Of a stretch of 64,000 nt of DNA, positions 17,779 through 20,468 are shown one piece after another (the first letter of the stretch is position 1; every line of letters begins with the position of its first letter). Below the pieces are notes generated by a model. The model did no database searches, was not told where the DNA came from, and saw only the letters and a program-made list of their open reading frames with translations. Made by a program: the position numbers and the translations under genes. The stretch is from Candidatus Kapaibacterium thiocyanatum. Its GTDB lineage: Bacteria; Bacteroidota; Ignavibacteria; Kapaibacteriales; Kapaibacteriaceae. Location: positions 62,001-126,000 of the forward strand of contig MKVH01000008.1 of the NCBI GenBank assembly GCA_001899175.1. The letters are read 5' to 3'.

Positions 17779-18471
17779 ATGAAGAGAATACTCCTTGTCG
17801 AAGACGAACTTCACGTCGTAGGCTTCATCACGAAAGGTCTGGCCGAGGAAGGATACGAGATCTCGGTAGCCCTGGATGGGGCCACGGGTCTCGGCATGGC
17901 CATGGCCGATCCGTACGATCTGGTCATCCTCGACATCATGCTGCCCGATATGAACGGTCTCGACGTCTGCAAGCAGATCCGGACATCCGGCAGTACCGTG
18001 CCCATCCTCTTCCTCACCGCACTGAGTACGGCCGAGAACGTCGCACATGGGCTGAACGTCGGCGCTGACGACTACCTCGTGAAGCCTTTCAAGTTCATCG
18101 AATTGCATGCGCGCGTGAAGGCACTGCTCAGGCGCATGGATACCATGGTCGATGCACGCAACGTCACGACGGATGTCTACACGCTCGCCGACCTGGTGGT
18201 GGACGACCGGGCGAAGACGGTGAAGAGAGGCGACGTCCAGATCGGTCTCACGGCGACGGAATACCGACTGTTGCTGGCGTTGATACGCAGCAAAGGCATC
18301 GTGCTCTCGCGAATGGATCTGCTGGAAAGCGCCTGGGACATCAACCATAGCGTAGGAACGAACGTCGTGGACGTCTACATCAACTATCTGCGGAAGAAGC
18401 TCGAGAAGGGCAATTCCGTACGATTGATACATACGGTCATCGGCATGGGCTACGTACTGCGGGAGGCATGA
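17779..18471 (+). CDS. OmpR/PhoB-family response regulator
   Basis: A 230-aa two-component response regulator. The receiver domain (1-115) has the acidic pair at E8/D9, phospho-acceptor D52 in LVILDIMLPDMNGLDV, T80 and K102 in LVKPF. The C-terminal winged helix (135-228) has the OmpR-type recognition helix region MDLLESAWDINHSVGTNVVDVYINYLRKKLE. Its stop overlaps the start of the cognate kinase gene by 4 nt. A likely target is visible: three phased heptamers upstream of the UspA-like gene just beyond the kinase. Confidence 0.97.
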   Translation: MKRILLVEDELHVVGFITKGLAEEGYEISVALDGATGLGMAMADPYDLVILDIMLPDMNGLDVCKQIRTSGSTVPILFLTALSTAENVAHGLNVGADDYLVKPFKFIELHARVKALLRRMDTMVDARNVTTDVYTLADLVVDDRAKTVKRGDVQIGLTATEYRLLLALIRSKGIVLSRMDLLESAWDINHSVGTNVVDVYINYLRKKLEKGNSVRLIHTVIGMGYVLREA

Positions 18472-19844
18472 TGGCCAGGATAACGACCAACACCAAGATC
18501 GCTCTTCTGCTCTTCGGCTCGAGCCTGACGACGCTCCTCATCTTCGCCGGGGCCATCTACTACTTCCTCGACAAATATTCGTACGCCGACTTCTACAAAC
18601 GACTGGAAACGCGAGCGACGATCGCAGCTCGGTACAATCTCGAGCTGGACACACAGAGCGCCGAAGCCGTGCGGATCCTGCGTACGCAGTACCTGGAGAG
18701 GCTCTCGCACGAACGGGAGTATATCCTCCGTGCCGTGTCGGAAACGGAACTGGAGGGAATCGCCATGCGCGAAGGGATTCCCGTATCCTTCCTCCGTACC
18801 ATATGGCGCGACGCCAGGGCCACGCACAAGGAAGGCGACACGTTCTATGCGGGAGTCAGGCACGACAGGGGAGCGGAGCGATACATCGTCATCATCTCCG
18901 CCGACAACTACTTCTCGTCCCATCACCTTTCCTTCCTGCGTACGATCCTGTTCGGCAGTATCGTCTTCGTGGCCCTGATCACGGCGGGGCTCTCCCTCTA
19001 CTTCTCCCGGCGGATCTTCTCGCCGATCAAGGACATCACCGACAAGGTGAGGAAGATCAGCACGGACAACATCCATCTCCGTCTCGAACATGCGGAGGGC
19101 AACGACGAAATCAGCGAGCTGTCGTCCACCTTCAACGATCTCCTCGACCGGATCGAAACGGCGTTCGAAACGCAGAAGAACTTCATCAGCAATGCTTCGC
19201 ACGAACTCGGGACTCCGTTGACGGCCATCATCGGCGAAGCCGACGTGGCACTGCTGAAGCCGCGGACGGCCGATGAATACAGGGACGTCCTGAAAAGTAT
19301 TCTGGAACAGGCCGACCGCCTCGACCAGATCACGAAGTCCCTTCTCTTCCTCGCGCAGGCGGGGTACCGCGGCAAGGTTGCATCGTTCGAACGGCTTCGT
19401 ATCGACGAACTCGTATGGCAGGCGAAGGAGACGATCGACCGGATCGATCCCCAGAACGACATCCACATCGATTCCAGTCTCTTCCCCGAAGACCCCATGA
19501 AACTCAAGGTCCAGGGCAACGCACAACTTCTCCATCTCGCCGTGGCCAACATCCTGGGCAATGCCTGCAAGTACTCCCACAACAAGCCTGTCCTCGTCAG
19601 CATCGCCGCAAGCGACGGGCACGTCGTCATCGTCGTGAAGGACGAAGGCGTAGGCATTCCGGATGCCGAACAGCAGTTCATCTACGATCCGTTCTTCAGG
19701 GCGTCGAACACGACCTACTTCGACGGCTACGGCATCGGTCTGCCACTGGCCCGGAATATCGTCCGCCTGCACGACGGCCAGCTCGACGTCCTGTCGGTCG
19801 TCAACGTCGGTACGACCGTGCGCATCAGATTGCCACTCGGATAG
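18468..19844 (+). CDS. Sensor histidine kinase
   Basis: A 458-aa membrane kinase partnering the overlapping response regulator. Residues 8-36 and 158-183 are transmembrane helices, enclosing a periplasmic sensor region of about 120 residues. HAMP follows (SRRIFSPIKDITDKVRKIS), then the dimerisation/phosphoacceptor domain with H245 in NASHELGTPLTAI, and the ATPase domain with N-box ILGNACKYS, G1 DEGVGIPD, F-box YDPFFRAS and G2 GYGIGLPLA. The phosphoacceptor box has HELG rather than the more common HELR. The signal is unknown. Start ATG at 18468 or the next codon. Confidence 0.96.
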   Translation: MMARITTNTKIALLLFGSSLTTLLIFAGAIYYFLDKYSYADFYKRLETRATIAARYNLELDTQSAEAVRILRTQYLERLSHEREYILRAVSETELEGIAMREGIPVSFLRTIWRDARATHKEGDTFYAGVRHDRGAERYIVIISADNYFSSHHLSFLRTILFGSIVFVALITAGLSLYFSRRIFSPIKDITDKVRKISTDNIHLRLEHAEGNDEISELSSTFNDLLDRIETAFETQKNFISNASHELGTPLTAIIGEADVALLKPRTADEYRDVLKSILEQADRLDQITKSLLFLAQAGYRGKVASFERLRIDELVWQAKETIDRIDPQNDIHIDSSLFPEDPMKLKVQGNAQLLHLAVANILGNACKYSHNKPVLVSIAASDGHVVIVVKDEGVGIPDAEQQFIYDPFFRASNTTYFDGYGIGLPLARNIVRLHDGQLDVLSVVNVGTTVRIRLPLG

Positions 19845-19879: not shown

Positions 19880-19908
19880 TTCTAATCCGGCTCTAAGACC
19901 ATTCTAAC
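19880..19908 (+). promoter_or_regulatory. Three 11-bp-phased heptamers, probable OmpR-family binding site
   Basis: The heptamers TTCTAAT (19880), CTCTAAG (19891) and TTCTAAC (19902) repeat at exactly 11-bp intervals, each followed by four unrelated bases. OmpR/PhoB-family dimers bind direct heptamers in this phase. The site lies 60 bp upstream of the UspA-like gene and just after the two-component system, so the adjacent response regulator is the natural candidate. Confidence 0.65.
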
Positions 19909-19967
19909 CGCATACCAATACGGCGGTCGGACCTTTGCGGCATCATACTTCAGCACGAAGGACATGC

Positions 19968-20468
19968 ATGCCGAGATCGATACTCATCCCCATCGATTTT
20001 CGTATCGAATCGCTCAATACGTTGAAGTTCGCATTGAGTCATCATGCAGACCAGGACGTCGTCGTCGTTCTCGTCTATGCCGTCGCGCTGACGATGTCCA
20101 TCACCGATCTCCTCTTCTATTCGCGGGAGCGCATGAGAACTGCGTACTCGACGCCAGCCTTCGAAGAAGCCCTGGCCATCCTGAAGAACAAGCATGCGTC
20201 GATCGTGAAGCGGATCGTCGTGGAGCCCTTCCATGGTGTGACGCAGAGTGCATTCGCCTCGTTCATCGAAGCGCGTTGCGTCGAGGAAGCCTATGTGCCG
20301 CGCCGCTACAGGCTTGCCGTCATGGAACGGGGCTTCGACATCCTGCCGTACATACGCAAGAGCGCTCTATCCGTCCATGAAGTGGATTGGGACATCCGCT
20401 CCGACGCCTGTGGCCGCGACGATCTCGATTCGCTGTTCAGCAACACGCCGGGACTCGATCCGGTATGA
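19968..20468 (+). CDS. UspA-like protein, degenerate
   Basis: A 166-aa protein starting PRSILIPIDFRIESLNTLKFALSHHADQDVVVVLVYAVAL, the beta1-alpha1-beta2 pattern of universal stress proteins. The usual ATP-binding signature G-2x-G-9x-G-S/T near the C-terminus is not recognisable, and the second half (CVEEAYVPRRYRLAVMERGFDIL) is divergent. It may be a non-nucleotide-binding UspA relative. It follows the histidine kinase by about 120 bp and has three phased heptamers upstream, so it is the likely output gene of the neighbouring two-component system. Start chosen for the beta-strand beginning at residue 4. Confidence 0.65.
   Translation: MPRSILIPIDFRIESLNTLKFALSHHADQDVVVVLVYAVALTMSITDLLFYSRERMRTAYSTPAFEEALAILKNKHASIVKRIVVEPFHGVTQSAFASFIEARCVEEAYVPRRYRLAVMERGFDILPYIRKSALSVHEVDWDIRSDACGRDDLDSLFSNTPGLDPV

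Follow-up and report, generated by a model that had tools for sequence, protein, structure and literature searches.

Genes and repeats at the locus

The window, a stretch of 64,000 nucleotides from contig MKVH01000008.1 of Candidatus Kapaibacterium thiocyanatum, carries a two-component system followed by short direct repeats and a gene encoding a UspA-like (Usp-like) protein. The features considered here are the following.

17779..18471, forward strand: OmpR/PhoB-type response regulator, 230 aa (Pfam PF00072, 1.4e-28; PF00486, 1.7e-22)
18468..19844, forward strand: sensor histidine kinase, 458 aa, with HAMP, HisKA and HATPase domains (Pfam PF00672, PF00512 and PF02518)
19880..19886, forward strand: putative half-site 1, TTCTAAT (from the sequence and the register of relatives)
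19891..19897, forward strand: putative half-site 2, CTCTAAG (same basis)
19902..19908, forward strand: putative half-site 3, TTCTAAC (same basis)
19913..19919, forward strand: putative half-site 4, degenerate, TACCAAT (position of the promoter-proximal half-site in relatives, 14 bp before TTTG)
19930..19937, forward strand: proposed -7 box, GACCTTTG (spacing to the array as for the box of relatives)
19968..20468, forward strand: UspA-like protein, 166 aa, proposed target (PF00582, 20 bits, below the cut-off of 24)

The receiver domain (PF00072) and the C-terminal winged helix (PF00486) of the response regulator both scored above cut-off, which places it in the OmpR/PhoB family, and its gene overlaps the kinase gene by 4 bp. 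The heptamers TTCTAAT, CTCTAAG and TTCTAAC follow each other at exact 11-bp steps at 19880–19908, as an earlier note on this DNA had described. The first starts 35 bp past the kinase stop codon (which ends at 19844), and from the end of the third there are 59 bp to the ATG of the Usp-like gene (19968), in agreement with the placement in that note, directly behind the kinase gene and 60 bp before the UspA-like gene. These are direct repeats at the phase of about 11 bp that is characteristic of tandem OmpR/PhoB-type operators. The degenerate fourth heptamer is identical to TTCTAAT at five of seven positions, and the four together scored 23/28, which 5000 shuffles of the intergenic stretch never attained.

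The core triplet TCTAA-N6-TCTAA-N6-TCTAA was present once in the window (0 in 100 shuffles) and once in the 3.27 Mb genome, with none in the reversed control. At step 11, TCTAA was the sole 5-letter word of the window to be repeated three times (steps of 6 to 30 bp were scanned), and nine other words, some of them overlapping, were tripled at other constant steps, so that an equally spaced triplet is not rare in itself. The coherent regulon for which the earlier note suggested a genome-wide motif search did not emerge: with up to three mismatches allowed, the three-heptamer pattern matched the genome once, at the window array, with no second site and no match in the control. Pairs of heptamers with at most one mismatch were not enriched genome-wide (18, including the two of the triplet, versus 24 in the reversed control). 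Given the unique site, the lack of pair enrichment and the triplets of other words, the organism's own genome alone shows only an unusual site; the view that the motif is not there by chance holds nevertheless, the array being conserved in other genomes.

The proposed target resembles Usp proteins (PF00582) in its N-terminal sequence and overall fold. PF00582 was matched at an E value of 0.01 by 11 of 43 members of this Usp-like family. The AlphaFold model of the window protein (pLDDT 89.5) returned mostly Usp entries as best Foldseek matches (best E 2.9e-6); the 26 matches with an E value of 0.001 or lower had query TM-scores of only 0.37–0.53, which is consistent with a predicted Usp-type fold at moderate TM-scores. 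Unlike ATP-binding Usp proteins, which carry a glycine motif, none of the 72 Usp-like proteins, including that of the window, which is itself below the Pfam cut-off, contained the ATP motif G-x2-G-x(8-10)-G-S/T. Usp proteins that do not bind ATP exist, so loss of the motif speaks against membership of the ATP-binding subclass only. The gene that follows the Usp-like gene in the window is convergent.

Distribution of the module in Bacteroidota

A scan of bacterial genomes revealed kinases in other Bacteroidota with up to 60 % identity to the window kinase. Closer relatives, from the same genus, family or order, gave kinase matches that at best had about 29 % identity, in the N-terminal half, and the 20 kinases from such relatives that were included in a phylogenetic tree were 26–38 % identical overall. 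In 59 such relatives, a search at E 0.001 detected no homologue of the Usp-like gene. The kinase tree (59 rows) grouped the window kinase in a set of nine with eight kinases of the module (support 98/99). Transfer from that kinase group or patchy loss would both explain the tree and the absence from close relatives. In a synteny test for recent transfer, an 18-kb stretch of a genome of the same genus (G001), compared with the window genes at about 9–34 kb, matched only a 502-aa gene, so that an empty site could not be read there, and the base composition was unremarkable.

A first set of 80 related loci from the kinase scan was compared. A homologue of the regulator lay upstream of the kinase in 79 of them (one was truncated by the end of the locus), and a pattern search found a Usp-like gene behind the kinase gene in 71. 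The remaining nine loci were L065, L102 and L106, in which the pattern missed a Usp-like gene that is present behind the kinase, together with two Runella loci, Echinicola arenosa, L085, L086 and L051 (also Runella). The module is found in many genera, including cultured ones such as Emticicia, Algoriphagus and Sphingobacterium. A typical Bacteroidota module was also seen in L090, a contig labelled Azovibrio restrictus from a metagenome-assembled genome of Pseudomonadota, and this is probably a mis-binned contig.

In the stretch before the Usp gene, heptamers resembling TTCTAAT at 11-bp steps were common among these relatives. In 43 dereplicated loci, a count from which the window was left out, there were 60 pairs of words resembling TCTAAT (at least five of six positions) at step 11, compared with a mean of 0.88 and a maximum of 6 in 500 shuffles and with one pair each at steps 8, 9, 10 and 12. 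Further excesses of pairs occurred at steps 22 and 33, and also at steps 20 and 31, the latter two being read as a possible second array in another phase. Extra upstream heptamers in another phase were indeed seen behind the kinase stop codon in L043, L049 and L061, among others. In L046, L063 and Sphingobacterium loci (e.g. L103 and L111) the TAA stop codon of the kinase forms part of a heptamer-like word (TTTTAAT, for example), an apparent overlap of operator and coding sequence.

The genes behind the Usp-like gene were searched in 71 loci with eight query proteins. Genes for a lipocalin-like protein (with a lipocalin Pfam match below cut-off) and a DUF1275 protein were found in 44 loci, SulP in seven (with carbonic anhydrase too in one) and an ABC plus HlyD pair in five; three loci gave single other matches and in 12 nothing was recognised.

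The recognition helix of the regulator was well conserved, reading GTNVVDVY in 38 of 72 loci and GSNVVDVY in 22. Regulators with the helix NTKVVDVY (L076, L077, L093 and relatives) were paired with heptamers that lean towards TTCTTAC rather than TTCTAAT; this apparent covariation of helix type and heptamer variant is suggestive, follows the clades and was excluded as evidence.

Promoter register, held-out loci and displaced Usp genes

The -7 consensus of Bacteroidota is given as TAnnTTTG in PMC7366714. In most relatives 14 bp separate the end of the last heptamer from TTTG, which leaves 10 bp before TAnnTTTG. At this offset of 14, TTTG, CTTG or TTTA was present in 53 of the 72 loci of the first set that were scored; one further locus had its box at offset 25, and 18 had no box at any of the three offsets tried. 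In the window the -7-like box GACCTTTG matches the consensus poorly and does not keep the TA, with TTTG at 19934–19937; it is through the register of relatives that this box and the degenerate fourth heptamer were recognised.

The register and the array were then scored in a held-out set of loci, found through the Usp protein alone. A profile of the Usp-like protein, run on 395 genomes of the phylum, matched 20 genomes at E 1e-10, namely the organism's own and 19 others. None of these 19 upstream regions turned up among the first-set loci, although L131 corresponds to the Runella place that was read again as L157. Eighteen of the 19 regions had a three-heptamer score of at least 17/21, a score found in none of 986 control windows drawn from the same loci, and the one miss (L143) scored 16/21, as do five of the control windows. 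The held-out loci are interrelated (five from one genus, one more from its family, five from a second family and four from a third, hence 15 of 19 from three families), so that their effective number is smaller. Two of them, L136 and L137, combined an array score of 18 with no such kinase within 1.5 kb upstream.

When the four heptamers were required to stand in register, at offset 14 before TTTG, TTTA or CTTG, 14 of the 19 held-out loci scored at least 20/28 and five missed; no other offset between 9 and 20 yielded more than two of 19, and none of the 986 controls reached this score at offset 14. The short fixed distance to the core promoter box that would be expected of an activator replacing an upstream promoter element was therefore seen at offset 14 in 14 of 19 held-out loci and 53 of 72 loci of the first set, and not in the rest. 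The tandem OmpR/PhoB-type layout proposed in the earlier note thus stands as far as phased direct repeats are concerned, but its count of three gives way to four half-sites when the array is read in this register. Its predicted regulator–target pair is well supported: in many other Bacteroidota an array of this kind is found between the gene for the related kinase and that for a Usp-like homologue, mostly at a fixed distance from the promoter box.

The array keeps company with the Usp gene where that gene has been displaced or flipped. In two Runella genomes (L166 and L167) 5.1 and 6.5 kb separate the kinase gene from the Usp-like gene behind it; both arrays sit before the Usp gene and each scored 18/21. 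In Echinicola arenosa the Usp-like gene is on a separate contig and no such kinase is encoded within 5 kb upstream of it; the contig that carries the kinase gene ends about 0.7 kb past that gene. The array before the Usp-like gene scored 15/21 on three TTCTAAT heptamers and 21/28 in register. In L085 and L086 (3020–3296) the Usp-like gene is directly upstream of the regulator gene and divergent from it, and between the divergent genes there is a TTCTTAC-type array pointing to the Usp-like gene. For these flipped genes (L162 and L163) the clade variant TTCTTAC, which was picked after the sites had been seen, gave 25/28 versus at most 18 in 104 control windows. Scored on the TTCTAAT core, L156, L162 and L163 gave 15, 16 and 16 of 21, values that 23 (for 15) and five (for 16) of 986 control windows also gave.

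Candidate operator, alternative readings and known systems

We give a probability of about 0.84 to the reading that the array provides four half-sites for two dimers of an OmpR/PhoB-type regulator, which would activate the Usp promoter. The 7-bp half-sites, separated by 4-bp spacers, would be bound head to tail by two phosphorylated dimers of the regulator encoded just upstream, whose partner kinase would sense an envelope signal. With 10 bp between its end and the -7 box, the array may take the place of the upstream promoter element, and the bound regulator would recruit RNA polymerase to the Usp-like gene. In the organism's own genome this gene is the only target found; in most relatives the same promoter would presumably also drive the genes for the lipocalin-like and DUF1275 proteins, the SulP anion transporter or the ABC–HlyD pair. 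Autoregulation was considered and rejected: arrays scoring at least 17/21 were found upstream of the regulator gene in just four of 78 loci, and the window scored 9 and 10 there.

Other occurrences of the box were sought in 12 Bacteroidota genomes, where the clear sites are at the module or at close paralogues. The strict three-heptamer pattern gave seven matches in six genomes and none in controls; six were at the module (two of these being one site) and the seventh lay about 1.7 kb upstream of the L060 regulator gene. This clean three-heptamer array, at about 1561 in L060, stands between a gene that, judged by eye, looks DsbA-like and a small one for which Pfam gave no match. Loosening the search to four heptamers and as many as three mismatches gave 22 matches in 10 of the same genomes versus five in controls. 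Eight of these were at the module, two were one L060 site, one was in L153 and one in L155, and the ten others (seven of them in one genome; one, in L154, was examined and is intragenic) were taken as background. The L153 array (2021–2059) lies behind a paralogous regulator–kinase pair and is followed by a SulP gene and a second Usp-type gene, and that of L155 (2505–2543, minus strand, Emticicia) stops 12 bp short of the ATG of a different regulator gene with a similar helix type. From its sequence contexts the box seems to belong to a small group of similar-helix regulators with few clear targets.

The L153 and L155 arrays are also what would be expected if the main binder were a different OmpR-type regulator that shares the helix type, or more than one such regulator, with the adjacent regulator as one of the set. 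We consider this unlikely, as the array, the Usp-like gene and this particular regulator–kinase pair adjoin in most of the loci examined and no second site was found in the organism's own genome. Sites near a promoter can also block polymerase, and repression of the Usp promoter by the bound regulator is on that ground conceivable; it is rated less probable still, since the array stops short of the -7 box by one prevailing distance, a usual location for an activator that replaces the upstream element.

Two further explanations would deny the repeats any role as an operator. Their position straight behind the kinase gene, with the stop codon inside a heptamer in some relatives, might suggest the end of the kinase transcript, an RNA element or a terminator. 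The array nevertheless stays with the Usp gene where that gene is flipped or where 5.1 or 6.5 kb separate it from the kinase gene, which led us to reject this very improbable explanation; its prevailing distance to the promoter box and the Rfam search, which at the gathering threshold returned one tRNA, nothing else and hence no match at the array, point the same way. That a chance triplet was picked by eye might be argued from the equally spaced triplets of other 5-letter words elsewhere in the window, and is hardly credible given that place, step and register are conserved in other genomes; the held-out and shuffle tests rule it out.

An activating operator of four half-sites, the reading preferred here, would be of a well-known kind. 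In the Pho box of Escherichia coli PhoB, direct repeats of 11 bp stand some 10 bp ahead of the -10 box and replace the -35 element, and the present array resembles it in having 11-bp repeats that would stand in for an upstream element at a similar distance from the promoter. It differs in scope, PhoB having a large regulon and the present genome one site found. The recognition helix NVVDVYINYLRKK is of a type that we take to be CusR-like; unlike the CusR box, which is a palindrome, the repeats here are direct (metal genes were considered among the neighbouring genes only). To our knowledge, only a small number of operators are known in Bacteroidota for classical two-component regulators. Closest in geometry is the PhoP operator of Mycobacterium tuberculosis, described in PMC4832192 as 7-bp direct repeats with a 4-bp spacer that are bound by a cooperative regulator dimer. 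The array shares this repeat length and spacer and differs in having another sequence and four half-sites, for which binding is predicted, in register with a Bacteroidota-type -7 box. Neither the operator nor the module was found described in the literature searched, which covered few papers of subscription journals, and within that scope this widely conserved example of a familiar operator type appears to be undescribed.

For this group of bacteria, the sequence alone yields a regulator, a half-site, a promoter register and a target across many genera, which makes the proposal testable at once and opens a way into DUF1275 and the branch of Usp proteins that lacks the ATP motif. A tentative extension, which we hold to be possible rather than likely, is that a nearly single-operator two-component system across Bacteroidota controls this ATP-motif-less Usp protein, which in turn might tune the membrane partner whose gene follows (DUF1275, SulP alone or together with carbonic anhydrase, or ABC–HlyD). 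If true, this would be a modular switch for envelope or anion stress in which the front is constant and the output exchangeable.
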